Shown here in pieces: positions 4,349-31,217 of a stretch of 33,807 nucleotides of DNA. The stretch's first letter is position 1. Each line of letters starts with the position of its first letter. A model generated the notes under the pieces. That model was not told where the DNA came from. It did no database searches and was given only the letters and a program-made list of their open reading frames with translations. Position numbers and translations under genes: made by a program. Origin of the DNA: Promethearchaeota archaeon (GTDB lineage Archaea > Asgardarchaeota > Lokiarchaeia > Sigyniarchaeales > SOKP01); contig JAEOSD010000010.1 in the NCBI GenBank assembly GCA_016840545.1, positions 1 to 33,807 of the forward strand. Reading direction: 5' to 3'.

Positions 4349-4446
4349 CTTTTCTCAAAATAAAAACTTAATTCGATATTGTGTATTATATTTTTAATTT
4401 TAAAAATTATTTTATTTAATAACCACATTAAAGTATATTGTATATT

Positions 4447-4635
4447 ATGAATAATCAACTAAGATCTCGAATAACTCTATTGAGCCTTTTGAGTATATTT
4501 TTTATATATAAAGCCATAATGGGAATAATTGAACAGAATATGTTAGATTTTACCTTATGGTTTCTTATTACTATTATTTACTTAATATCACTTGTAATAT
4601 TGTATTTTGTTATTAGGAATAAGCAGAATGCGTAG
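4447..4635 (+). CDS. Small two-TM membrane protein
   Basis: Short ORF with two hydrophobic segments; internal ATG (MNNQL) is the likelier start. Confidence 0.4.
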   Translation: MNNQLRSRITLLSLLSIFFIYKAIMGIIEQNMLDFTLWFLITIIYLISLVILYFVIRNKQNA

Positions 4636-4686
4636 AAATTGCCTTATACTGCAAAACTCAAAAAATTTAGAAGAAAAAGTTACAAC

Positions 4687-4941
4687 TTACTTTTTCTTCT
4701 TTAAGAAAGAGTCAAATCCAAGAGTTTTGAATATAGTATCTTTAATATCCATCTGGATTTTCATATCTCGCATGATTTTAAGTGATTCTTCAAGAGTTTT
4801 CGAGAAATTTTTACTCATTTCTTTAATTGTATCAGAAGTTAACTGTAATGACTCTCTTATTGCTTTATTTGTTTCACGTAATTCCTCAGCCATTTTATCT
4901 ATACTTTTTCTCAATTCAGATAGTTCATTTTTAATCCCCAT
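4687..4941 (-). CDS. Small coiled-coil protein
   Basis: 84 aa, heptad-like helix (MGIKNELSELRKSIDKMAEELRETNKAIRESLQ...). Confidence 0.55.
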   Translation of the reverse strand: MGIKNELSELRKSIDKMAEELRETNKAIRESLQLTSDTIKEMSKNFSKTLEESLKIMRDMKIQMDIKDTIFKTLGFDSFLKKKK

Positions 4942-5337
4942 GATGAAACGCGCTAATATTTATACCTTTTATGTCAAAAATATTTCAAGACTTTAGTATA
5001 TTTCTAAAATTATTATTGATAATAAATATTCTTTTATAACATCATTTTCTTATTTAATATAATAATTTTAGAAATTAAATTCAAAAATGTCAGATTGGAA
5101 ATATAGAATAGAAGAATCGGAACCTGATGATAACTATTGTTCAGGATGAGTAATCATCGATTCCATCATTGCAAGTTTCAGAAATATAAAAAAAAGGCGA
5201 AATGAAAAGAAGATAAATTCAAAAAAAAATCTCAAAGATTAAGTTAAAAAATGTTAGAATCTAATCTTGTAAGTCTTGTGAGGACTTGAGATAATAACAA
5301 TATTGAATTTTTTTATTTTTAAAAAAAGATTTAAATC

Positions 5338-14759: not shown

Positions 14760-16298
14760 ATGCAGTTTTCAAAGAATAAGAAATTAAATAAGGCAGAACT
14801 ACTTAAAAATGAGGGAAAGTACAAGGAAGCCCTCCAACTATTAAATAATCTTGAGGAAAAGGCTAATCTTCCTCCTCAAGAAAAACTTGCCTGCCAACTC
14901 CTCAAGAGCACATGTTTAAATAGATTGGGACAAGATGAAGATGCCCTCAAGCTTGCTAAACAAGTATATCAAGAGAGCAAAAGAATGGGAAATCTTCTCC
15001 TATCCTTTGACGCATCTATTGAAATAGCTGAAGCATTACTTTTTCTTGGAAAATTAGATAAAAGCTTTGAAATAATTGATAGAAGCGAAAGTCTGCTCAA
15101 ACTTATTACTCAAGAACCGTCAAAAGAGCTGATGCGAAGGAAGGCATCTATTGCATACCTTAAAGGTTTTTTTCACTCGGAAAAAGGTGAATTAGATTTA
15201 TCCCTACAATTCTTGAAGCAATCTTTAAAGTTGCAAGAAGGATTGGGCTACAAACAAGATATCGCTCGGTCTCTTACTCAACTTGGAATTATTTATCTAT
15301 TTAAGGGTGAATTTGAACGAGCTCATGGATATTATGAGAGGGGGTTAATACTTGAAGAAAATGGTTTTAACAGGAATATACCCCATCTTTATATCGGTAT
15401 TCAGATCACTTCATCGTATAACGGAGAGTTGGAAGCAGCTTTGGAATGTATTAAGCGAGGTTTGGCTTTTGCCGAGGAGTTAAATGATAAATACTTAATT
15501 CCAATGTTTCTTAATAATATGGGACTTACCTATTACCAACAGAATGATTTAATTCGTGCATTTGATTGTATTGAGAGAAGTCTGATCGGTTTTGAGAAGA
15601 TAAATAACATTGGGATGATTATTACCGTTCTAGACTCTCTGATTGAATTAGCTATCCATATGAACTCTTATGAACAAGCCCAACGATATTTTAATCGTAT
15701 GAAATTGTATATAGATCAAGAAAAAAGCAAGCTAAATGATGCTATTTATCGTATGGACGAAATACTGATGTTAAAAATTAGTCCTAAAGCGAATGATCGA
15801 GTAAAAGCTAAAAAATTATTTCTGCAGTTTGTTGAAGAAGAAATCGTTTGGTGGGACATTAGAATTCATGTTCTTCTTCACCTTTGTGATATACTCTTAA
15901 TTGAACTACGTGAATCTAATGATCTGAAAGTAGTGGACGAATTACAATACTATATTACCCAAATATTGGATATTGTTGAGAATCAAAACATTTATTGGTA
16001 TTTAGCTGAAATTTATTTATTCCAGTCAAAAATGTTTTTATTAATCTTGGATTTAAAAAAAGCCCAACGATCTTTGACTCAAGCCCAGCACATATGCGAA
16101 AAATGTGGATTTAGCAGATTGGGCATAAGAGTTTCTAATGAGCAAGAGGAATTGGCTAAACAATTAAGTAGATGGGAAGATTTAAAACAATCAAGAATTA
16201 CTATTGATAAACGTATGGACTTTGCCCGGTTGGATGAGCAATTGCTGCGAATGTTCCAATTACGTTTCTTTTTGAAAAAACAGATTTCTACACAATAA
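14760..16298 (+). CDS. TPR repeat protein (paralogue of 25225..26766)
   Basis: Repeated helical pairs e.g. ALECIKRGLAFAEELNDKYLIPMFLNNMGLTYYQQNDLIRAFDCIERSL. Confidence 0.85.
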   Translation: MQFSKNKKLNKAELLKNEGKYKEALQLLNNLEEKANLPPQEKLACQLLKSTCLNRLGQDEDALKLAKQVYQESKRMGNLLLSFDASIEIAEALLFLGKLDKSFEIIDRSESLLKLITQEPSKELMRRKASIAYLKGFFHSEKGELDLSLQFLKQSLKLQEGLGYKQDIARSLTQLGIIYLFKGEFERAHGYYERGLILEENGFNRNIPHLYIGIQITSSYNGELEAALECIKRGLAFAEELNDKYLIPMFLNNMGLTYYQQNDLIRAFDCIERSLIGFEKINNIGMIITVLDSLIELAIHMNSYEQAQRYFNRMKLYIDQEKSKLNDAIYRMDEILMLKISPKANDRVKAKKLFLQFVEEEIVWWDIRIHVLLHLCDILLIELRESNDLKVVDELQYYITQILDIVENQNIYWYLAEIYLFQSKMFLLILDLKKAQRSLTQAQHICEKCGFSRLGIRVSNEQEELAKQLSRWEDLKQSRITIDKRMDFARLDEQLLRMFQLRFFLKKQISTQ

Positions 16299-16424
16299 AA
16301 TTTTTTCAAATTCTCGATTGATATTAATTATGAAAGAGATTCAATAGAAATTACTAATTAATCGCTAATTATTTGAACTTTAGAAGTTTAGAGTAAAATT
16401 TAATAATAAAAAAAAAGAATATAT

Positions 16425-16486
16425 AGGAAGATAGTTGGTTTAGGTGTGGTTAATTGAGAAGCCATTTATCTAAACTCATTCCTCCC
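16425..16486 (-). repeat. Hairpin element copy A, followed on the minus strand by a T-run (A9 at 16408-16416)
   Basis: TTGGTTTAGGTGTGGT..GAGAAGCCA...CTAAAC core shared with copies B and C; outer stem AGGAA/TTCCT. Confidence 0.75.
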
Positions 16487-16541
16487 ATTTGTAAATTTTT
16501 AGTTAATTTTTCAATTATCCATTGCTATTATGGAATCAATA

Positions 16542-17891
16542 TTAATACCACCATGGTGGCAGATCCCATATGTGATTATCGGTACCCTCATCTAATACTG
16601 TGTTGGCTGTATTTCGCCCAATAACATAGCAATTACTGCTTCCAGGTCCAAGCCAGATGGGAGCCATGTCAGCTTGGAAATTGGTCATATCGTTTCCTAT
16701 CATAAACCAATTAGTACATGGAGCCCATAAACCGGGCCAGTCATCTATTCCGATACAGATTCCTGCTAACCCTAGACCTGTAAATTCATTACATATGACT
16801 TGAACATCATGTACCCAAAATCCATATATCCCAGCAAAACTATCCTCTTCCATGATTATATCGTTGTGATAAATCTTTGCTTTAATTGTGGTATCCCGTT
16901 CATAAAATAAGGTATCAAAATCCATTATTTCAATACCAGCGACTAGTGCTTGGATAGTATTATGCCTAATTCGATACGAGCCAAGTTGCTGATAAACATC
17001 AGGCTCTACTCCAATAAGGGGAATATCTCCATGCAAGATAAATACTCCCTCAACGCAGGAAGAAAGTTCATTATAGGAAAATTCTAAAATGGAACCAAAA
17101 TTATCAATTAATTGTATACCGACTGAAACAGAATTAAGCTTATTGTTTATGAAGCTTAATTTTCCATCTAATAAACCAGCTACCACAAAACTCGTCATAG
17201 TATCTTCAAATGAACAAGAAATTATTCTATGTTTCCCATATACTGGATCAGCAGAAATCATGAAACCACCAGGCTCATTAAGATATTCTCGACCACCAAT
17301 AACATTGCCCTGAGCATTACCGTTATGCCCTTTAAACTTAACAGATTTAAATAGTGAGTTTGAGTGCCCTGCTATTCTTACTATATTACTAACCGCAGTA
17401 GATGTCTCATAAAATGTTTGCCAGGGATAAGCTGGATCGAGTGCCGTGATTTCAAAGGTCAAATCACAAATCTTAATATCACAGTCTTCAAAAAGAAACC
17501 AAATAGAGAAAGGATAAAGAGTAGACGGATCCTCAGGATCAGTTTGGATTAGTTCTATCCCCGCGAGACTCGGATTCAATCCACGTAAAGTATCAATTTT
17601 AGTTAAATCCATACCTGCTCCTTTAAATACACCATTAAAGTTCTGAACGATAATATTATTCGCATAAAATTGTCCAGCAGTAAGTTGGACTATACATCCC
17701 TGTCCTGTTGCGATAGCATCATTGAATGCAGCCTGGATGTTGGCAGTATCATCTCCACCAGAAGGAGACACAAGAAAAGTTTTTGGCCGGGACCACGTAC
17801 TTGCAGGTTGAACTACAAAAGCTAGGAATCCTAATGTAACTCCTAATGTCATTAGTACTAGAATAAAAGTTGATTTTGTACTTTTTTTCAT
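16542..17891 (-). CDS. Secreted right-handed parallel beta-helix protein
   Basis: Signal peptide MKKSTKSTFILVLMTLGVTLGFLAFVVQPAS; pectate-lyase-like repeats; paralogue of 18971..20368. Confidence 0.8.
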   Translation of the reverse strand: MKKSTKSTFILVLMTLGVTLGFLAFVVQPASTWSRPKTFLVSPSGGDDTANIQAAFNDAIATGQGCIVQLTAGQFYANNIIVQNFNGVFKGAGMDLTKIDTLRGLNPSLAGIELIQTDPEDPSTLYPFSIWFLFEDCDIKICDLTFEITALDPAYPWQTFYETSTAVSNIVRIAGHSNSLFKSVKFKGHNGNAQGNVIGGREYLNEPGGFMISADPVYGKHRIISCSFEDTMTSFVVAGLLDGKLSFINNKLNSVSVGIQLIDNFGSILEFSYNELSSCVEGVFILHGDIPLIGVEPDVYQQLGSYRIRHNTIQALVAGIEIMDFDTLFYERDTTIKAKIYHNDIIMEEDSFAGIYGFWVHDVQVICNEFTGLGLAGICIGIDDWPGLWAPCTNWFMIGNDMTNFQADMAPIWLGPGSSNCYVIGRNTANTVLDEGTDNHIWDLPPWWY

Positions 17892-17937
17892 ATTTTTCGC
17901 ACTTTTTTTTCTATTATTTTATAAATTATACAACACT

Positions 17938-18000
17938 TTAGTTGCATTGATTTAAATATTATGCAACGGGTTAGTTGCATTAATTAAAAAATATGCAACG
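17938..18000. promoter_or_regulatory. Double palindromic operator in divergent promoter region
   Basis: GTTGCAT-N13-ATGCAAC (17941-17967) and GTTGCAT-N12-ATGCAAC (17974-17999), 33 bp apart; TATA-like CATATATAAATC just downstream. Confidence 0.75.
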
Positions 18001-18159
18001 ATCCATATATAAATCTTATGATCAAAAATTAAATTATAAATATTCATTTTATAAGAAAGAATAAATATAAGGCCGTACAATTTGTTATTAAGGAACAGAA
18101 ATATTTTTATTCATAAAGGAAAGAAAAAAAGAAAAAATCAGATAAAGGATGGGTAGGTA

Positions 18160-18864
18160 ATGTCGATAAAAAAAGAAATAAAAACTTTTTTTCCAAGTAC
18201 AGAGGAATCTTGGGAAGAATTAATAGATAAACACCCCTTACGGTATGATGTTTGGATGATTCTACAAATTTATCATGAGAAACACGTATCTGACATAGCT
18301 AAATTAACAAAAAGAAACAAATCTACGCTATCAAGAGTTTTACGAAGTATGGAGGAAGATGGGCTCGTACTCTCGAGGAAAGAAAATTTATTAAAAGAAG
18401 GAAAGATTCCTGCAAAATATTATCGTATTAATCCTGAAATTCAGGAGGAGGTGCCAGATTTTGAGGATATACTTTCTTCGAATGATCCCCAAAAACTTCT
18501 AAACTTCTATGAATATGAGCTTACAAATTATCAGAAGGCAATTTATAATGGCAAAAAATTACTCGATTATTTAAATCCTTTATTAAATCACTTGAAGGAT
18601 AATTTGGATGATATTGAAGAAGCTAAACAGATATATGCTAAGTATTGGTTAAATATATCACGACCGTGGTTTAATCTCATATATTTAGATGAAGAATGCT
18701 ATGAAAAATTTTTCGATATACGGTTAGAATATATGCTAAAGTTAGAAAAGCTTGCAAGGGAACATAAATTGGATACCAATAGCGCATTCATTTATTTCGA
18801 TTTTTCATTACCGCTAAAATCTATATTTGAATTGAAAAAACAAGAAAAACAAAAATATGAATAA
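18160..18864 (+). CDS. Winged-HTH transcriptional regulator with novel C-terminal helical domain
   Basis: LRYDVWMILQIYHEKHVSDIAKLTKRNKSTLSRVLRSMEEDGLVLSRK; C-terminal domain shared with 21553..22317. Confidence 0.85.
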   Translation: MSIKKEIKTFFPSTEESWEELIDKHPLRYDVWMILQIYHEKHVSDIAKLTKRNKSTLSRVLRSMEEDGLVLSRKENLLKEGKIPAKYYRINPEIQEEVPDFEDILSSNDPQKLLNFYEYELTNYQKAIYNGKKLLDYLNPLLNHLKDNLDDIEEAKQIYAKYWLNISRPWFNLIYLDEECYEKFFDIRLEYMLKLEKLAREHKLDTNSAFIYFDFSLPLKSIFELKKQEKQKYE

Positions 18865-18897
18865 CAAAATTTAAAAATAAGAAAAAAGTAATATAGA

Positions 18898-18960
18898 ATG
18901 GAGGATAATTGGTTTAGGTGTGGTCATTCGAGAAGCCATTTTTCTAAACTGAGTCCTCCT
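18898..18960 (-). repeat. Hairpin element copy B
   Basis: ATGGAGGATAATTGGTTTAGGTGTGGTCATTCGAGAAGCCATTTTTCTAAACTGAGTCCTCC; nested stems GGAGGA/TCCTCC and GTTTAG/CTAAAC; A6 run on upstream plus side (T-run on minus). Confidence 0.8.
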
Positions 18961-18970
18961 TTTTCCATAT

Positions 18971-20368
18971 TTAAAAATATTTCATTAATTCCTTCTTCTG
19001 CTCCATTGCTTCTTGAATCTCTTGACCTATTACAGGCCCTTGAATTTTACTCACACCTATTAAAATGTTATTTGTGCCATAATCTGCAACCATGTCATTA
19101 GCATGACCTAAAACAATGCAATTTGCGGAGGCTCCGCCTAACCAAATAGGGGCTATTCCCGGAACGAACCCCCACATACCGTTATAATCTGCAACTTCCC
19201 ATCCTTGGAAATTATTGCCAATGATCATTATTCCATCCGTAGGCTCGTACACTCCAACGGCCATCCCAAAAGGACCTGTTCCTTTTATTTTATTATTAGC
19301 TATTAAAACACTCTTACCACCATCAATCCATAACCCAGGCCCATAAAATGAATCTTCACTGTAAAGTTCATTATGAGTTACCACATAGTTTTGCTCTAAG
19401 AAAGTATAGTCATATATTTCGACGGCAGCAGTCCAGCCATCTACTGGATTAGTAGCCTTATTATGCTCGATTAGATAATTATTTGAATAAGTAAATGGCG
19501 TTCCATAGGTTCCAATAATTCCGCTGTTTATCCCGATGTTACGAGAAATTTTAGCATTAGTATATTGACAATTGACAATTGTTGTGCCCCTAATTAAAGA
19601 ATTTTCAAAAGTATTGTAAGAAATATCAATAATCGAATTCGTTAAACCGTATATTGCAATGGGTTGGAAACTATTTGCTATGTAGCAATCACTAATAGAA
19701 ATATCGCCTGATATTGCATGTGGTGTCCACAATGTTATAGGTTCAAGAATATTTGGCACAGATTGTCCCCAAGAATTGATATAGTATTCTCCTAAAATTT
19801 CAATTCCATCTAATTTTACATTATAAAAATATTCTCCCAAATATTGTTCAATACCTATAATAGAGTAAAAAGATTCGTCCATATTGTAAGCCCAAGGCCA
19901 AGAATCCCATAACTCCGTTTTACCAATAGCCTTAAATGTGATATCTGCAACTTCAAGCTTTGCTGGAACCTCTGGATTAGTTCCAATACTTTCCAAGTGA
20001 AAAACAAAAAAATCTGGATAGGGGTCTGCGGGGAATGGATCGCTGTCAGAATGCTCATTTACAACGATTGTCTTACCTTTTCCTTGACCTTTAAAAATTC
20101 CGTCAAAATCAGTTATATAGATTGTATTTTTGATATAAAAGATCCCTTCTCCTAGAATGATACTACTTCCTGATCCTGCGGAAGATGCGGCATCAAAAGC
20201 ATTTTGGATAGCTATTGTATCAGTATCCCCTGTAATATCCCAAGAGGGATCCACATATATAACTTCTGAATCTGCTCTGGTCGTGCCAATAGCAAAAATA
20301 AAAAATCCCATAATCATTGCTAATGCTAAAATTGCGACTAATGGTTTCGATTTTGTTTTTATTTTCAT
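18971..20368 (-). CDS. Secreted right-handed parallel beta-helix protein
   Basis: Signal peptide MKIKTKSKPLVAILALAMIMGFFIFAIGTTRA; AIQNAFDAASSAGSGSSIILGEGIFYI and APIWLGGASANCIVLG shared with 16542..17891. Confidence 0.8.
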   Translation of the reverse strand: MKIKTKSKPLVAILALAMIMGFFIFAIGTTRADSEVIYVDPSWDITGDTDTIAIQNAFDAASSAGSGSSIILGEGIFYIKNTIYITDFDGIFKGQGKGKTIVVNEHSDSDPFPADPYPDFFVFHLESIGTNPEVPAKLEVADITFKAIGKTELWDSWPWAYNMDESFYSIIGIEQYLGEYFYNVKLDGIEILGEYYINSWGQSVPNILEPITLWTPHAISGDISISDCYIANSFQPIAIYGLTNSIIDISYNTFENSLIRGTTIVNCQYTNAKISRNIGINSGIIGTYGTPFTYSNNYLIEHNKATNPVDGWTAAVEIYDYTFLEQNYVVTHNELYSEDSFYGPGLWIDGGKSVLIANNKIKGTGPFGMAVGVYEPTDGIMIIGNNFQGWEVADYNGMWGFVPGIAPIWLGGASANCIVLGHANDMVADYGTNNILIGVSKIQGPVIGQEIQEAMEQKKELMKYF

Positions 20369-20433
20369 TTTTTTACTCCAAATATTTTTTTATTTTCAAT
20401 TTTACATTTTATAATAGAATGAAAAAATAATTA

Positions 20434-20507
20434 TATAGAATGGAGGATAATTGGTTTAGGTGTGGTCATTCGAGAAGCCACTTTGCTAAACTTCCTCCAT
20501 TTCTATA
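20434..20507 (-). repeat. Hairpin element copy C (longest stem)
   Basis: TATAGAATGGAGGA...TCCTCCATTTCTATA outer stem with one bulge, inner GTTTAG/CTAAAC and GTGG/CCAC. Confidence 0.85.
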
Positions 20508-20574
20508 GGTTTGATTTAAGATTTCAACCATCCTGAATAGTCTCCTTATATTGGAATTTAAATTATTTCTGCGT

Positions 20575-21306
20575 CTAATGAAGAATTATGTTATCTATTA
20601 ATGTTATTCCATTTAAACCATAAAGGTTATAATTTGGATTCGACCCGGAATAATCTTCGCCTACTATAACCAAATAGTGGATTGTATGCATTTTTGCTGT
20701 CTCTCCTACTTCCCAAGAGTCATATGGATTTACAAACTCCCCTGATCCACTACCACATATTAAAACTGATTCTAAGGTGAAAGTTACCCAAACATACCAC
20801 CACCATGGCATATATTTAATGTTTCCATCTTCATCAAAATCATCAGGTCCAAGGGTATCTAAATCAATTGTGAATCTTAACTGATATATATAATCCATAA
20901 CTCCAAAAAGTACTGGTGTACCTGCAGGAATAGGTCCGGCGGGAATAAAAACATAAAATGGAGCATCTTTCATACGCAAATTAACGGAAACCAGAACTTT
21001 ATTATCTTTTAGTATTCTCTCCGCTACAAATCCATCATAATCACAGTCCAATGGTGGCTTGTAATACCCCCATGGAACATAAGATGGATCAATTAAATGA
21101 GGTTGTATTGCTAGATTTCTCTCAAAATCCACCATATAACCCACTGGTTGATCATCCACAAGATTATTAGCGATTAGCCAATCCTCTATTGGTCTAATTT
21201 TTATTTTTCCTTTTCCTCTATGTGCCACAGCTGCTGGAATGAAACTAAAAATGACTGTTATTACTATTACTAATAATGCTATTCTTTTTATTTTCAATTT
21301 TTCCAT
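20575..21306 (-). CDS. Secreted protein of unknown function
   Basis: Signal peptide MEKLKIKRIALLVIVITVIFSFIPAAVA; no recognised family. Confidence 0.7.
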   Translation of the reverse strand: MEKLKIKRIALLVIVITVIFSFIPAAVAHRGKGKIKIRPIEDWLIANNLVDDQPVGYMVDFERNLAIQPHLIDPSYVPWGYYKPPLDCDYDGFVAERILKDNKVLVSVNLRMKDAPFYVFIPAGPIPAGTPVLFGVMDYIYQLRFTIDLDTLGPDDFDEDGNIKYMPWWWYVWVTFTLESVLICGSGSGEFVNPYDSWEVGETAKMHTIHYLVIVGEDYSGSNPNYNLYGLNGITLIDNIILH

Positions 21307-21345
21307 TTTTTTTTCACTCTTTTTTTTTAATTAAATTATGATATT

Positions 21346-21382
21346 GAGCAATCCCAATAATATGGTAAAAATGAGACGGCTC
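21346..21382. promoter_or_regulatory. Operator-like imperfect palindrome upstream of regulator 2
   Basis: GAGCAATCCCAATAATATGGTAAAAATGAGACGGCTC aligns without gaps to 24457-24493. Confidence 0.55.
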
Positions 21383-21398
21383 ATCATCATTAATATAT

Positions 21399-21418
21399 GG
21401 GAAAGATTTATATTTAAA
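21399..21418 (+). promoter_or_regulatory. BRE/TATA promoter of regulator 2
   Basis: GGGAAAGATTTATATTTAAA, identical at 24511-24529 region. Confidence 0.65.
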
Positions 21419-21552
21419 TATTGTGATCATCTTTATAGAGAAAAAAAAACAAAGTTTTATTTAAAGTATGAAAAAGACTGTTTTACCTATTAATTTTAAA
21501 AAATAATTGTTCTATATTAAAAAATTACAATTCAACGGGATATTAGATTAAA

Positions 21553-22317
21553 ATGAGTAAAGATAATAACGACAAAAATAAATTAAATTTAAAAAATATA
21601 ACTACTAAGCAGGAAATGTATAAAGACGTAATTCTGGAAGAAGACTGGCTAAATTTAATCGACAAGCATGAATTACGCTATGAAATTTGGGCGATTCTCA
21701 AATTATATAATGAACTGAATGTTACAGAAATTTCCCATTTAGTAAAACAAAGCAAATCTACCGTGTCAAGAGTATTAATAGGGATGAAAAAGGATGGATT
21801 GATTATATCAAGAAGAGGTGTAACCAAAGAAGGTGAAGGAGAAAAAATCCCGCCAAAATACTATCGTATAAACGAAGAATTTAAAGCAAAATTTGAAGGT
21901 GAAATAGGTGAACTTGAAATTCCTACTGATCCTCAAAAACTTCGTGAATTTTTCATTTCAGAGATTATGAATTTCAGAAATGCTATTTACAATATTCATA
22001 AATTACTTGATTTTATGGATCCTTTATTAAACATTTTTGAAGATCAATTAGAGGATATAAATAGAGCAAAAAGTATTTATAGCACATATCTTTCTGGCAA
22101 AAATGAACCATGGTTTAATCTACTGTATTTTGATCATGAACGATATGAACAGTTTTTAGATATACGGTTAGAATATTTGCTAAAATTAGAAAAACTTGCT
22201 AGGGAGCAAGAATTAAACCCTAAAAATGCCTTTGTCTATTTAGATGCCTCATTACCGCTAAAAGCGATAATTGAACTGAAAAAAAACAAACTTTTAAAAT
22301 CAAAAAAAAGTTTATAA
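21553..22317 (+). CDS. Winged-HTH regulator, full-length paralogue
   Basis: LRYEIWAILKLYNELNVTEISHLVKQSKSTVSRVLIGMKKDGLIISRR plus conserved C-terminal domain. Confidence 0.85.
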   Translation: MSKDNNDKNKLNLKNITTKQEMYKDVILEEDWLNLIDKHELRYEIWAILKLYNELNVTEISHLVKQSKSTVSRVLIGMKKDGLIISRRGVTKEGEGEKIPPKYYRINEEFKAKFEGEIGELEIPTDPQKLREFFISEIMNFRNAIYNIHKLLDFMDPLLNIFEDQLEDINRAKSIYSTYLSGKNEPWFNLLYFDHERYEQFLDIRLEYLLKLEKLAREQELNPKNAFVYLDASLPLKAIIELKKNKLLKSKKSL

Positions 22318-22414
22318 AAAGATTTTTTACACATAAATATACTTCTAAAGAAATGATGAGATTTTGATTTTAAAAAAAATCATCCTAACTAAAAATTGAT
22401 TAAAAAAAAGATAT

Positions 22415-24391
22415 TTAATTATTTTTAATTATTTTTTTTTTGCGTTTTTTTTCAGGTTTTCCTTCATCTTCATTTTTACCTAGCTTTCGCTTAATAAGCC
22501 AGAACGCAAGTCCAACTACGCCTGATACAGAAGCGGTAATTATAGTATTCCTAATAATTTTCTCTGTCTCGCGCTGTTCAGCTTGTGTATCTTTTTGTAA
22601 CACCACTTGTTCAGAATCTAAGTGTCCCAAAGTATCAGTTACATAAAATTTAATTGTTACTTCTCCATCTGGAAGAGCTTTCCATGCCGATGGGTCGATT
22701 ACACCCGCATTACTGTAAAAATAATGACTTGGTCCATCATTTAAGGTGTACCATCTTTGGGCGATGTGTGGTTCATCTATATCGAGGTCATATGCTGGCG
22801 CACTATCCCAAACTTCATTGGTTGATGGACTTTGGATTGTTATTCTAGGATTAGTATCATCTGTTGTGAAGGTGAACGATTTACTGTCTGAAATGTATGG
22901 CGTAGTAGTTGTAGCAGACACATGAAGGATATGATCTTTATCCTCAGAAGGAAGCTTAATGATAGTTGATTCAGACCATGGTTCGTTAGGATCACTATCC
23001 CAATGATAAAGTACGCTCTCAAGCAATACAAATTCACTTTTCAGGTCAACATTTATTATAGTATCGCTTTCAAGCACTGAATACTCTGATGGTGAAATGA
23101 GATGAAAATCTAACTGTTCTGGATTTGCATCCCATTTTATTAAAGCATAGCGACTATTTATGTGTCCACAAGTATAGACATAGTTGGAGTCACCCTTTAT
23201 ATTGGTTCCATATGCATTACCTGTAATAGCAGGTGGAAATACTGGTCCCCAAGTGGAATTCCACACCTGATTTCCATAATTATCCCATTTCACGAGTAAT
23301 AGGTCACTATCAGAATCAGCATAAGAGTCGGTATAACCAGTCGTGTAGAGATAATTACCATATCCCCATAGCGACCATGCACTATCATCGAGTGCTCCCC
23401 CCCAAGTTTGATTCCAAACTTCTTTCACAGTACCACCTTCTTCCTGCCATTTCACAAGGAGTAGATCTTTACCTCCATTTCCATCACTTTTCGTAAATCC
23501 ACTTGTATAGATACTATTTCCGTCCAACCATATTTCCTGTCCTCCGTCATCATCATCTCCAGCCCATACTGTCTCCCATTTCCAACCTCTATCTTGAAAT
23601 GGACCAGCAAAAACATACTTTTTCAAAAATAAATCACTGTTTCCACTTCCTCTTCCAGTTATTCCACAGAGGTAGACTGCTCCTCCTGTGAATTGACCAA
23701 GATAGTATCCTGCCATTGAATAGTAGATATCATCGTGTAGTCCTCCAAAAGTAGTATTCCCTAGAGCTTCTCCGGTTGTATCATCCCAAGTTACAAGTAC
23801 AGCATCTGCATCTCCCGTTGTGGTATGTCCACATGTATAAAGATATTGCCCTGCTGCGAAAACTGCAGATGGTGCATCATAACCTGGACCCCCCCAAGTA
23901 CCAACCCATAAACGATTACCATCTGTATCCCATTTAATTAGTACAAAATCGTACTGATCACCATCTTTGTTTGTAATTCCACAAGTGTAAATATATCCTC
24001 CATAACCCCATACGTTAGTACCCTGTTCTATAGTGTATTCGCCATCCCCAGCATACGCTTTGCTCCAGATGACATTGCCATTACTATCCCATTTCGTTAA
24101 GAGCAAATCCCATCCTGTCAGATGCATCATATCCAAGTTTTCATAACTCCCACATGTATACCAGAATGTTCCATCACCCCAAATAGCATTATAATAATCA
24201 TCCCATACTGACTGGCTTACTCTATACCAAACTATATTTGTTTGAGAACTCTTCAGTTTAGTAAAAGTGTCATTACTCAGCTCATTGTATCTTGAGGTAT
24301 ATAGTATAATTCGATTTGTATCAAAAGTAAGAAGTAATGGGAAAATTAGGAATAACATCAATACTAAAATACCAAAATTATTTTTTTTCAA
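22415..24391 (-). CDS. Secreted/anchored beta-propeller (SBBP-like repeat) protein with Ig-like region, C-terminal TM and basic tail
   Basis: About 7 repeats of (D)LLLVKWD..GN..WN.TWGG; C-terminal TIITASVSGVVGLAFWLIKRKLGKNEDEGKPEKKRKKK. Confidence 0.82.
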   Translation of the reverse strand: MKKNNFGILVLMLFLIFPLLLTFDTNRIILYTSRYNELSNDTFTKLKSSQTNIVWYRVSQSVWDDYYNAIWGDGTFWYTCGSYENLDMMHLTGWDLLLTKWDSNGNVIWSKAYAGDGEYTIEQGTNVWGYGGYIYTCGITNKDGDQYDFVLIKWDTDGNRLWVGTWGGPGYDAPSAVFAAGQYLYTCGHTTTGDADAVLVTWDDTTGEALGNTTFGGLHDDIYYSMAGYYLGQFTGGAVYLCGITGRGSGNSDLFLKKYVFAGPFQDRGWKWETVWAGDDDDGGQEIWLDGNSIYTSGFTKSDGNGGKDLLLVKWQEEGGTVKEVWNQTWGGALDDSAWSLWGYGNYLYTTGYTDSYADSDSDLLLVKWDNYGNQVWNSTWGPVFPPAITGNAYGTNIKGDSNYVYTCGHINSRYALIKWDANPEQLDFHLISPSEYSVLESDTIINVDLKSEFVLLESVLYHWDSDPNEPWSESTIIKLPSEDKDHILHVSATTTTPYISDSKSFTFTTDDTNPRITIQSPSTNEVWDSAPAYDLDIDEPHIAQRWYTLNDGPSHYFYSNAGVIDPSAWKALPDGEVTIKFYVTDTLGHLDSEQVVLQKDTQAEQRETEKIIRNTIITASVSGVVGLAFWLIKRKLGKNEDEGKPEKKRKKKIIKNN

Positions 24392-24456
24392 TTGTTTTCG
24401 CCTACTTAATATCGTTTAATGATTTTTTTTATATCATTTTTTAAAATTAAATTTTA

Positions 24457-24493
24457 GGGCTGTCCCATTGAGATGGTCTATATGGGACGGCTC
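24457..24493. promoter_or_regulatory. Operator-like palindrome upstream of truncated regulator 3
   Basis: GTCCCAT (24462-24468) N13 ATGGGAC (24482-24488); same 27-bp geometry as 17941-17967. Confidence 0.65.
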
Positions 24494-24509
24494 ATTATCA
24501 CTAATATAT

Positions 24510-24529
24510 GGGAAAGATTTATATTTAAA
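24510..24529 (+). promoter_or_regulatory. BRE/TATA promoter of regulator 3
   Basis: GGGAAAGATTTATATTTAAA duplicated from regulator 2 upstream region. Confidence 0.65.
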
Positions 24530-24662
24530 GGTTGTGATCATTTTTTTAGAAAAGAAAAGTTAAAATTTCACTTTAAGAACTAAAGTACCGTTTTACTTAT
24601 TAATTTTAAAAAGTAATTGTTCTATATTAAAAAGTAACAATCCTACGAGATGTTGGATTGAA

Positions 24663-25010
24663 ATGAGTAAAGATAATAACGATAGTAATAAACTAAATTT
24701 AAAAAATATAACTATTAAGCAGGAAACGCCTAAAGACATAATTTTGGAGGAAAATTGGTCCAAATTGATGGATAAACATGAACTACGCTATGAACTTTGG
24801 TCAATTCTCAAACTATTTAATGAATTGAATGTTACAGAAATTTCCCATTTAGTAAAACAAAGCAAATCCACCGTGTCAAGAGTATTAATAGGGATGGAAA
24901 ATGATAGATTGCTAATATCAAGGAGAGGAAGAAAGAAACCGGAAGACGGAGAGAAAATTCCACCTAAATACTATCGTATAAACGTAGATTTATTTCCTGG
25001 GAACAAATAA
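24663..25010 (+). CDS. C-terminally truncated winged-HTH regulator paralogue
   Basis: Aligns to first about 107 aa of 21553..22317 (MSKDNND.NKLNLKNIT..KYYRIN) then ends VDLFPGNK. Confidence 0.75.
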   Translation: MSKDNNDSNKLNLKNITIKQETPKDIILEENWSKLMDKHELRYELWSILKLFNELNVTEISHLVKQSKSTVSRVLIGMENDRLLISRRGRKKPEDGEKIPPKYYRINVDLFPGNK

Positions 25011-25224
25011 ATACTATTTTATTCTCAAAGAAGGAAAATATCATACTCATTTCTACGTTCTCCGAAATGTTGAGATATTAAGCTGAGAGAAATGGACTTC
25101 TCTAGAATTAGAGAAAATAATATTAAATATGAAAAGCACTTAAATTTATGTTAACAAGTTTGTAAATATGAAATTCAAAGTAAAATAAACAAAAATTAAA
25201 TATGACATAAAAAAACTTAAACCT

Positions 25225-26766
25225 ATGTTAAATTCAAAGGCCAAGGAATTAACACTGGCAAAAAAACTAATGAAGGAAGGAAAATTGGAAGAAGTTTTTC
25301 AATTAATAAACGAATTTGGGAAAGAGAAAGCTCTCTCACGTGAAGAACAAATCTATTATTATTTACTTAAGAGTTCTCTATCGCTGTACTTATTTCAAGA
25401 CCAAGGTATTCTCAAGTACGCTGAAAAGGCTTATCAAGAAAGCCAAAATCTTGGGATTTCCCTTCAATTACTTGATGTATATGTTCAGATGGCCATGGGT
25501 CTAATATATCGGTTTAAATCAGAAGAAACTCTTGAATTACTAGGAAAGGCTGAAGACCTGTTCAAGATGCTCACTGAAGAACCACCAACAGAGCTTTTAG
25601 AAAGAAAAGCTTCTATCGCTTTTATTAAAGCCTGGCTTTACTCTGACCAAAACGAAAAAGATAAAGCTTTAGAATGGGCTCAACAAGGGCTTAAAATACG
25701 AGAAGAAATCGATCTTAAAGCTGGTATTGGAATCTCTTTATACCAAATTGCATGGATATATTTTAAGAGCGACAATGAACTTGCTTTGAAATATGCAGAT
25801 CGATGCATAGAATTTTGCGAAAAAATTAATTATAAGAATTTGATTCAAAAGTGTAATATGTTAAAAGGGTTGCTTTACTTATGGAAAGGCGAGTTAGCTT
25901 ATGCTTTAAAATACTTTAATCTTAGTAAGAAACTACTAGAAGAATTGCCCAGAGTAAATAAAGATTCATTCAGCGCAGCACAATTGTTCCATCTTATCGG
26001 AAGTGTTTATCGGGACAAAAATGAGTTAGATATAGCCAAGGAATATTTCGAAAGAGCTTTAGTAATTAAAGAAAAGGTTGGTGCTTATTTTCCTAAAGTA
26101 ATGACTCTTGACGAATTGATATCTTTATCACTTTATAAGAGTGATCTTAAGGAGGCGGAGAGATATTTAAAAGAAATGAAGCGAATCAGCGACCAAGAAA
26201 ATAATAAATTTCTAAATTTATGTTATCGCGTAAATATGGCTAGACTACTAAAATTGAGCCCACTTATTAGTAGTCGAGAGAAAGCTGAAGAGATACTAAA
26301 AGAATCTTTACATGATAAGGTGGCTGATAGCGAAGCAAAAGTAATAACTCTGCTTAACTTAAGTGATTTACTCTTAGCTAAGCTAGGTAAGACCAATGAT
26401 CTTAAAATACTCGACGAAATAGAACTATATACAACTCAAATACATGATATTGCTAAGAACCAAAACTCCTACTCATTTCTTGCCGAAACATTCTTGCTGA
26501 AAGCTAAATTGGAGTTATTGACATTAAATTTGAAACAGTGTCAACGATTTTTAGACAAAGCTCAAGATATAGCCGAAACATATGGTCTGGACCTATTACT
26601 TAGGAGAATTATAATAGAGCAGGATGATTTGGTTAAACAAACTGATAATTGGGAAACACTAAAGAGAACCAAGTCTAACATAGCTGAACTCATAAATCTG
26701 GCTCACATTGAAGAGCAATTAAACCATATGCTTAGGAAGCGCTTTCTTTTAAAAAATGCTGTTTAA
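25225..26766 (+). CDS. TPR repeat protein (paralogue of 14760..16298)
   Basis: Collinear similarity: AYQESQNLG / VYQESKRMG; LLERKASIAFIKAWLYS / LMRRKASIAYLKGFFHS. Confidence 0.85.
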   Translation: MLNSKAKELTLAKKLMKEGKLEEVFQLINEFGKEKALSREEQIYYYLLKSSLSLYLFQDQGILKYAEKAYQESQNLGISLQLLDVYVQMAMGLIYRFKSEETLELLGKAEDLFKMLTEEPPTELLERKASIAFIKAWLYSDQNEKDKALEWAQQGLKIREEIDLKAGIGISLYQIAWIYFKSDNELALKYADRCIEFCEKINYKNLIQKCNMLKGLLYLWKGELAYALKYFNLSKKLLEELPRVNKDSFSAAQLFHLIGSVYRDKNELDIAKEYFERALVIKEKVGAYFPKVMTLDELISLSLYKSDLKEAERYLKEMKRISDQENNKFLNLCYRVNMARLLKLSPLISSREKAEEILKESLHDKVADSEAKVITLLNLSDLLLAKLGKTNDLKILDEIELYTTQIHDIAKNQNSYSFLAETFLLKAKLELLTLNLKQCQRFLDKAQDIAETYGLDLLLRRIIIEQDDLVKQTDNWETLKRTKSNIAELINLAHIEEQLNHMLRKRFLLKNAV

Positions 26767-26840
26767 GTATTAATTTTTAAATTCAAAATTTTTTTGAATT
26801 AACCTTTAATTCTTCTATTTATATAGTAAAATACTAAATT

Positions 26841-28149: not shown

Positions 28150-28449
28150 TTGCGCAATGTCTGAAGTCCCATGCTGGACGGACCGCAAAATGCGCATAGC
28201 GGAAATGCCTGATTTGAGGCATCATGAGTTGTTATTAGCCATTATTGTATCCCGGCGAAGCTCTCCCCATGATGGTGGGTGTCTGTGTGGTGTTTTCTGT
28301 AGGGAAAACATAATCACATAATAGCAAACCCGGCCAGGCCAGGGATGGAGCAGCCGTAAGTTTAGGCGTTCACGCTTCATGGTAAGGGAGTGGAGGGGTA
28401 TGATATTTTTGGACCTAATAATAGGATTGGAGCTGAGGATCGGGTTTTT
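28150..28449 (+). ncRNA. SRP RNA (archaeal 7S RNA)
   Basis: Helix 8 CGGCCAGGCCAGGGATGGAGCAGCCG (28331-28356) with GNRA loop and AGCAG internal loop; helix 6 GTGTGGTGTTTTC/GAAAACATAATCACAT; helix 5 strands TTATTAG/CTAATAA and CTCCC/GGGAG; upstream TATA TTTATAAC about 28119; T6 at 28445. Ends approximate. Confidence 0.85.
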
Positions 28450-28832: not shown

Positions 28833-29936
28833 ATGTCTGAGGATATTATAGTTATCGATGCAAATATTCTTAATAATTTCATGCAAGATGTCTATATTGG
28901 TTTAGGAGTTCCCAAAGAAGATGCTAAAATTATTGCTGATGTTTTAATTACATCTGATTTAAGGGGAATAGAATCGCATGGAATTCAACGATGCAAAATG
29001 TATTATGATAGAATTAAACAAGGAGTTTATGAAATAAATACCAAAATTGATGTTATAAGGGATGGTCCAACTACGGCTCTTTGGGATGGTAATTGTGGTA
29101 TGGGACATGTAATTGCCTATAAAGCCATGAAGGCTGCAATTGAGAAAGCAAAAAAGTATGGTCTTGGGGCTGTTGCGGTTAGAAATTCTACACATTTTGG
29201 AATTGCAGGGTATTACTCTTTAATGGCGATTAAGGAAGGGATGATAGGCTTCACAGTAACTAATGCAAGACCCTCAATTCCTCCTACATTTGGAGTTGAA
29301 CCTATGTTAGGGACTAATCCTTTAACAGTTGGGGCACCAACAGATGAGGATTTTCCTTTTCTTATTGATTGTGCCACATCTATAATACAACGTGGAAAAG
29401 TAGAAGTTTATAGCAGAATAAATAAACCTTTACCAGAAAATACTGTAATAGATGATAAAGGAGAAATTATGACTGATCCTAATAAGGTTTTAGAAGAAAT
29501 GCTTCATAGAAAGGCAGCTTTGTTGCCTTTAGGGGGGAAAGGAGAGGACACAGCGGGATATAAAGGATACGGCTATGCTACCTTTGTTGAACTATTATCT
29601 GCTGCATTGCAAGATGGAATATATCTAAGAGATACACTTGGAATCGAAGAAGATGGAAAAAAAAGGCTTAAAGTAGGTCACTTCTTTCTCGCAATAAATA
29701 TTGATAACTTTGCAGGGTTAAATTCCTTTAAAAAAACTGCTGGTATTATTATGAGGGAGCTTAGAAATGCTAAAAAAGATCCTACAGCTGAAAGAATATA
29801 TACTGCAGGTGAAAAAGAACATCTTGCAGAGATAGAAAGGAAAAAGACAGGAATACCTTTAAACAAAAGCCTTCAAAATGATATCAGAATTATGCAACAA
29901 GAGCAAGGGTTAGATCAATACAAATTCCCTTTTTAA
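28833..29936 (+). CDS. Malate/L-lactate dehydrogenase, LDH2 family
   Basis: SDLRGIESHGIQR, VRNSTHFGIAGYYSLMAI, LGTNPLTVGAPT. Confidence 0.93.
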   Translation: MSEDIIVIDANILNNFMQDVYIGLGVPKEDAKIIADVLITSDLRGIESHGIQRCKMYYDRIKQGVYEINTKIDVIRDGPTTALWDGNCGMGHVIAYKAMKAAIEKAKKYGLGAVAVRNSTHFGIAGYYSLMAIKEGMIGFTVTNARPSIPPTFGVEPMLGTNPLTVGAPTDEDFPFLIDCATSIIQRGKVEVYSRINKPLPENTVIDDKGEIMTDPNKVLEEMLHRKAALLPLGGKGEDTAGYKGYGYATFVELLSAALQDGIYLRDTLGIEEDGKKRLKVGHFFLAINIDNFAGLNSFKKTAGIIMRELRNAKKDPTAERIYTAGEKEHLAEIERKKTGIPLNKSLQNDIRIMQQEQGLDQYKFPF

Positions 29937-30074: not shown

Positions 30075-31217
30075 ATGTATACAACGGAAACTAGTGATCA
30101 GCAATCAAAGGTTGATTTCGATGAAATCGTTTATATTAAACCACATATTTTAAAAAACTTCATTATAGACGTTTTTATAAAATTAGGTGCCTCCAAAAAA
30201 CATGCAGGAATTGTTTCTGATGTGTTAATCACTTCTGATATAAGAGGTATTGATTCTCATGGTATTCAAAGATTAAAGACTTATTATGAAAGAATCAAGC
30301 AAGGTATTTATAATGTAAAAACTAAACCAAAAATAATTAAGAAAACTCCAACTACTGCCGTTATAGATGGAGGATTTGGATTAGGACCTGTAGTTGCTTA
30401 TAAATCAATGAAGCTAGCAATTAAAAAAGCAAAAAAGTATGGTTTAGGGGCTGTCGCTACTCGTAATTCAACCCATTTTGGTATTGCCGGTTTTTACAGC
30501 TTAATGGCAATAAAAGAAGGAATGATTGGAATTACAACTACAAATACAAGACCTATGGTTCCACCTACATTCGGAGTGGAGCCATTATTGGGCACAAATC
30601 CATTAACCATGGGTGCTCCAACAGATGAGGATTTTCCCTTTCTTATTGATTGTGCCACATCAATTATCCAGAGAGGAAAGGTAGAGGTATATAATAGATT
30701 ACATAAATCACTTCCTGATGGTGTAATAATAACAAAAAATGGAAAAACTGAGGATGATCCTGAAGAAGTATTGCATGAATTGGATGAAGCTTCAGCTGCA
30801 TTATTACCTCTGGGTGGAAAAGGAGAAAGTACTTCAGGGCATAAAGGATATGGTTATGCAACTTTTGTAGAAATATTATCTTCCGCATTACAAGAGGGTA
30901 TCTTTTTAAAAAATACTGCTGGGATTTATGAAAATGGTAAAAAGAGGCTACCAGTAGGCCATTTCTTCTTAGCTATTAATATTGAAAACTTTATGGGAAT
31001 AAATTCTTTTAAAAATACAACTGGAAAGATCATGAGGATTTTAAGAAGTTCTAAAAAAGAACCTGGAGTCGAAAAGATTTATACAGCAGGAGAAAAAGAA
31101 CATATCAATGAAATTGAAAGAAAAAAAACAGGAATTCCTTTAAATAAAAGTATTCAACAAGATATTAAGCTTATTCAAAAGGAATTAGAATTAGAAAAAT
31201 ATATTTTTAATTTTTAA
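30075..31217 (+). CDS. Malate/L-lactate dehydrogenase, LDH2 family (tandem paralogue)
   Basis: Same motifs as 28833..29936; upstream GGTGA Shine-Dalgarno-like site. Confidence 0.93.
   Translation: MYTTETSDQQSKVDFDEIVYIKPHILKNFIIDVFIKLGASKKHAGIVSDVLITSDIRGIDSHGIQRLKTYYERIKQGIYNVKTKPKIIKKTPTTAVIDGGFGLGPVVAYKSMKLAIKKAKKYGLGAVATRNSTHFGIAGFYSLMAIKEGMIGITTTNTRPMVPPTFGVEPLLGTNPLTMGAPTDEDFPFLIDCATSIIQRGKVEVYNRLHKSLPDGVIITKNGKTEDDPEEVLHELDEASAALLPLGGKGESTSGHKGYGYATFVEILSSALQEGIFLKNTAGIYENGKKRLPVGHFFLAINIENFMGINSFKNTTGKIMRILRSSKKEPGVEKIYTAGEKEHINEIERKKTGIPLNKSIQQDIKLIQKELELEKYIFNF

Follow-up and report, generated by a model that had tools for sequence, protein, structure and literature searches.

Lokiarchaeia are an archaeal group with close kinship to the ancestors of eukaryotes. 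In metazoans, histone mRNAs end in a common 3'-terminal stem-loop that tags one functional gene set. Archaeal terminators are U-tracts for which a hairpin is not required, and Lokiarchaeal aCPSF1, that of Lokiarchaeum, cooperates with U-tracts (PMC8716108). In the literature searched, no Lokiarchaeal 3' UTR element was found described, and searches of Rfam and the literature gave no archaeal parallel to a sequence-conserved 3' hairpin tag on unrelated secreted-protein mRNAs. The window analysed here, a whole stretch of 33,807 nucleotides from a Lokiarchaeial genome, contains an element that may be such a tag: in two Lokiarchaeial genera, the same hairpin and T-run end quite different secreted-protein genes, and together they most likely represent an unusual shared control signal that forms and marks mRNA ends.

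Several described systems resemble the element in part. Like the metazoan histone-mRNA stem-loop, it is a shared 3' mark on one gene set, but it is larger and of unrelated sequence, is followed by a U-tract, has no known binding protein and accompanies genes that are not all homologous. With bacterial intrinsic terminators it has in common its place 3' of genes and a hairpin that leads directly into about 8 T, whereas its host is an archaeon whose terminators need no hairpin, its stem is long and nested, its core is conserved in sequence across species, and it belongs to one gene set. The archaeal U-tract/aCPSF1 terminators (PMC8716108, PMC7515710) likewise have a U-tract at the presumed 3' end, to which the element adds a conserved hairpin and core upstream. 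Finally, the attC sites of integrons, also described from archaea (PMC9668308), are imperfect hairpins 3' of each gene, and some gene-element units stand in tandem here too; the element differs from them in its T-run, its repeat polarity, which is wrong for attC, and the lack of both long arrays and an integrase above cut-off.

Position and anatomy of the element

Three type-1 copies lie on the minus strand of the window, where the initial annotation had placed them. Element A (16406..16498; R2 86.8 bits, E 1.7e-16) consists of an outer stem, a conserved inner core and a T-run; element B (18880..18972; R2 109.8 bits, E 3.7e-22) touches with its 5' end the stop codon of the gene at 18971; element C (20422..20510; R2 86.7 bits, E 1.9e-16) has the longest outer stem of the three. 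Their cores (16438-16475, 18912-18949 and 20454-20491) match a degenerate core pattern with zero mismatches, and these are the only 3 perfect matches in the whole genome, against 0 in 100 shuffles. Each copy is located 3' of a minus-strand signal-peptide gene (stops at 16542, 18971 and 20575), and each hairpin is followed on that strand by a T-run, both as first described: 9 T after A (16408..16416, an A-run on the plus strand), 6 T after B (18882..18887) and 6 T after C (20422..20427).

In the aligned copies, the outer stem is AUAUAGAA/UUCUAUAU, then comes a stem GGAGGA/UCCUCC, an inner stem GUUUAG/CUAAAC, and an apical UGG/CCA with the loop CUUCUCGA, with AUCUUUUUUUU after it. A T7 run stands on the sense side of the hairpin in 39 of 47 copies and on the antisense side in 7 of 47. 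A short ORF in the core was considered and discarded, since 15 of 33 copies lack an ATG and 4 of the 18 that have one run into an early stop.

Distribution and conservation

A first covariance model, built from the three window copies, was run on their own genome and on related genomes. The former yielded the window copies only (next match, E=1.2), while strong matches in related genomes supplied the further copies whose existence the initial annotation had made a test of its reading. Two refined models were then run on 66 family genomes, one built from 19 type-1 copies and the other from 8 type-2 copies, whose core differs. Of 232 phylum genomes, 23 were positive with the type-1 model at E<=1e-4, all within two genera of one Lokiarchaeial family (2 of 63 genera), which together comprise 44 genomes; outside these two genera, the refined model gave no match at 1e-4 in the 232 genomes, and weak matches in other families (E of 0.0015 and above) were dismissed as chance level for 198 genomes. 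The exact core pattern, searched over 85,488 species, occurs in Candidatus Lokiarchaeota/Lokiarchaeia records only. It was not found in viral contigs, and a viral origin of the element was rejected on that ground. The comparison with Rfam proposed at the outset matched no family, a sensitive search giving no covariance-model match above the gathering score.

Cores are about 83% identical whether compared within or between genera, whereas c0 proteins, the most often element-linked family, are just 20-34% identical to the c0 protein of the window. Within genomes the cores are 85% identical (0.85 vs 0.83 between genomes), and within-genome gene conversion was accordingly rejected as the source of core conservation. 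Since identities are near-equal at all levels, recent spread and gene conversion are poor explanations, and purifying selection on the core would be the simplest reading.

The secreted-protein gene set

The nearest same-strand upstream gene encodes a signal-like N-terminal segment in 34 of 38 cases, as compared with 71 of 273 in the background (p=3e-14), such segments being called by a simple hydropathy rule (N-terminal hydrophobic segment) rather than by SignalP; secretion is improbable for 2 of the 34 positives, namely a URO-D-like and a small membrane protein. The element-linked families are c0, c9 (beta-helix), c11, c20 and c28. In the window, the minus-strand gene upstream of A (16542..17891) encodes a secreted right-handed beta-helix protein of family c9, pectate-lyase-like (PF12708, 27.2 bits vs a cut-off of 27), and the one upstream of B (18971..20368, minus strand) its secreted c9 homologue, with no Pfam match. 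Upstream of C (20575..21306, minus strand) lies a secreted 'RPxxDW' protein of the uncharacterised family c0. The initial view that the adjacent ORFs are not all homologous is thus correct for the gene at C, which is of another family, but not for those at A and B, which are homologous at 30% identity. Neither the c0 protein of the window nor three relatives had a Pfam match, and a structure model of the c0 cargo (pLDDT 77.5) gave no significant PDB match; that of c11 was too poor in quality for use.

The element and c0 co-occur: among the 66 genomes, 18 have both, 5 the element only, 2 c0 only and 41 neither (p=8e-10), and the association also holds within the two genera (p=4e-6). One of the two genomes with c0 only, G020, has a diverged hairpin with a T-run. 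A similar distribution is seen for relatives of a TrmB/MarR-like HTH protein (c3; 18160..18864, plus strand, Pfam TrmB) encoded divergently from the 16542 gene; 15 of 66 genomes have such relatives, and 14 of these 15 also have the element. A paralogue with 54% identity (c3; 21553..22317, plus strand) is divergent from the 20575 gene. The protein at 18160-18864 is, we infer, a candidate regulator of the secreted set. There is also a third, short HTH paralogue (24663-25010, 115 aa), whose DNA is 86% like the start of 21553-22317 and which looks truncated. In three genomes (L142, L143 and L147), the element is immediately followed by genes that, by eye, resemble those of Ras-type small GTPases.

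The 3' ends of c0 genes

A protein search for the c0 family returned 32 genes in 20 genomes, again of the same two genera; its profile was made from element-linked genes, so recruitment is not wholly independent. One gene ends at a contig edge, and in 31 of the 31 testable ones a hairpin and T-run follow the stop. By an automatic rule (<=150 nt) the count is 27 of 31, vs 19 of 204 control genes, with the element itself present in 6 of these 19 positive controls; in the other 4 c0 genes the element is present, with the T-run further out or shorter (by eye). The intrinsic-type arrangement, in which a U-tract comes directly after a hairpin located 3' of a gene, is found in 39 of 47 copies and in all 31 c0 genes. 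Moreover, in G008:C41 (z -4.8), G006:C20 (z -2.3), G020:C57 (z -8.7), G011:C24 (z -6.3) and G008:C48 (z -6.7) the inner domain is different or lost while hairpin and T-run are kept. Because these survive core replacement or loss, the outer hairpin with its U-tract is the constant part, and the sequence-conserved inner core is an optional, recognition-like domain.

Two further observations concern these 3' regions. In G022:C40 (L077, 3' of the c0 gene 4400-5032), a type-1 core is inverted within a normally oriented outer stem with a T-run. In the 3' UTRs of c0 genes, a second motif, GAGGGTTGAAATCTT, precedes the outer stem by about 24 nt, and 12 of 31 UTRs have it with <=3 mismatches, vs 0.3% of shuffles; its counterpart in the window is GATGGTTGAAATCTT, ahead of element C.

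Folding and covariation

The minus strand folds better than shuffles at A (z -2.2), B (z -2.0) and C (z -5.3). The plus strand of all three folds at least as well, so the strand is not decidable from folding alone. As the antisense strand is the more stable (-26.0 vs -19.0 kcal/mol for sense), the element may act through this strand or as DNA.

The initial annotation had taken the outer stems of the three copies for different sequences kept by covariation; they are one GGAGGA/TCCTCC stem in shifted register, and the changes are mostly one-sided. Two-sided changes number 3 across the 19 type-1 copies and 0 across the 8 type-2 copies. The type-1 covariation score (0.090 vs 0.071) is equalled in 2 of 500 shuffles, yet it comes with just those 3 changes. 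About 92% of cells remain paired, mostly because the sequence itself is conserved, and G-U cells (16) and A-C cells (13) are near-equal in frequency, G-U not being clearly favoured. Covariation support for the element is weak, and the diverged copies described above are the stronger structural evidence.

Constant ends and variable cargo

Profile comparisons of the families show c0 and c20 to be alike over the 29-residue signal peptide only, c0 and c11 to be weakly alike over the N-terminus only, and c0 and c9 not at all. At the DNA level, whole genes of different families are homologous at both ends and not between: in a c11/c0 pair the 5' end matches over 126 nt at 79% and the 3' end over 133 nt at 89%, with similar homology in c20/c0 and c9/c0 pairs, while one c11/c0 pair (G038 and G002) matches at the 5' end alone. 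The shared 5' end is the leader plus signal peptide, and the mature proteins are unrelated. The suggestion that the element travels independently of its genes is therefore right in part, as it follows unrelated cargo proteins; however, the carrier genes also have a homologous 5' end, and so both ends seem to travel jointly while the middle varies. In G023:C46, as judged by eye, a reading frame resembling a signal peptide continues directly into the element, as though the mature part had been deleted.

Shared ends around different middles would fit cargo replacement by recombination; alternatively, a fast-evolving middle may simply have diverged. In its fuller form, the first of these holds that secreted cargo is swapped by recombination while one promoter, signal, mRNA end and regulator family are kept, giving a variable surface or secreted set, and this can be put forward only tentatively.

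The window copies lie in a variable locus of about 12 kb (14760-26840) between the genes for IMPase (13812) and MPG (26841). In 13 same-genus relatives, the IMPase-MPG gap contains one URO-D-like gene without the element, and the idea that the element is an ancestral feature of this site was rejected on that ground. In G017, G047 and G054, a lone element is found there without a secreted gene; because the flanks of the lone copies differ, separate losses of the secreted gene are likely. Two TPR proteins of similar length, encoded on the same strand (14760-16298 and 25225-26766) and probably paralogues, flank the variable region. Further downstream, positions 28207-28445 (plus strand) match the archaeal SRP RNA (RF01857) at 73.8 bits, under the Rfam gathering score of 96.5, and a tandem gene pair (28833-29936 and 30075-31217; repeats D2 and D3) has about 70% DNA identity.

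Proposed function and alternative explanations

Position, orientation, structure potential, T-run, conservation and gene set together argue that the element is probably the 3'-end module of the mRNAs from a set of secreted-protein genes in two Lokiarchaeial genera, serving to terminate these transcripts or to protect their ends, with a core bound by a putative factor. RNA polymerase would transcribe the gene, a short 3' UTR, the hairpin (AUAUAGAA/UUCUAUAU plus GGAGGA/UCCUCC) and a U-tract of about 8, the last acting as an archaeal termination or aCPSF1-cleavage signal. A hairpin just ahead of the U-tract would leave a defined, exonuclease-resistant 3' end and so protect or mark the mRNA end, and the sequence-conserved loop core, about 40 nt in most copies and of type 1 or type 2, is probably the recognition site of a putative protein or RNA acting jointly on these mRNAs. 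The initial interpretation as a 3' UTR or terminator-like element of secreted genes thereby survives in its position, T-run, presence in 23 genomes and co-occurrence with c0, though not in its covariation. Against the 3'-end module stand the weak covariation, the better folding of the antisense strand, the few copies without a secreted gene between the IMPase and MPG genes, the inverted core of G022:C40, and the fact that archaeal termination can be hairpin-free (PMC8716108).

Some of the same observations could be explained by a DNA recombination site, in which the hairpin serves, like integron attC, as a folded-DNA or homology anchor for exchanging secreted-protein cassettes. Genes with unrelated middles have both ends in common, gene-element units stand in tandem in the window, L043 and G058:C64, lone copies occur at the variable locus, the core of G022:C40 is inverted, and G-U and A-C are equally frequent. 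On the other hand, this leaves the constant T-run and orientation unaccounted for, copies are few and scattered in each genome, and no dedicated recombinase was found. The polarity of attC is RYYYAAC ... GTTRRRY, and by inspection the element has GTTTAG ... CTAAAC. An integron integrase (TIGR02249) above cut-off was found in 0 of 66 genomes, with weaker tyrosine-recombinase matches only, likewise seen in 13 of 14 control genomes. The integron reading was rejected on these last two grounds, and a recombination site in general is unlikely. A small RNA acting in trans, stand-alone or derived from the 3' UTR, and using the conserved loop CUUCUCGA as its seed for pairing, is quite unlikely: the core is indeed better conserved than the genes and is kept in the gene-free copies G017:C33, G047:C23 and G054:C1, but inspection revealed no promoter-like motif common to all variants, and in G047 and G054 the copies that lack a gene have different flanks, so that gene loss looks independent and possibly recent. 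Pairing with SRP RNA, at 7 nt, is no better than chance (97 of 200 shuffles reach or exceed this length) and was discarded.

Regulated attenuation, with the element controlling whether transcription continues into the gene that follows, would agree with the same-strand gene that often begins 100-250 nt downstream; given that the next gene is convergent, on the opposite strand, at window copies A and B and at many others, and that downstream gene families vary, it is very unlikely. Least credible is a mobile palindromic repeat, REP or MITE-like, that landed after genes by accident. The element is palindromic and patchily distributed, but the many dispersed copies without fixed gene context expected of such repeats were not seen; copies are few per genome, with mostly constant orientation and stop-codon distance, and the occurrence of nearly all of them after one gene set counts as refuting this origin.

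Significance

If the element is indeed a 3'-end module, a gene set in Asgard archaea would be under common control by way of its 3' UTRs, and a factor binding the element could be sought. If cargo swapping were also true, a constant 5' leader and signal peptide and a constant 3' hairpin would frame variable surface or secreted proteins. The mosaic genes make the exchange of secreted-protein cargo in Lokiarchaeia directly testable from genomes.
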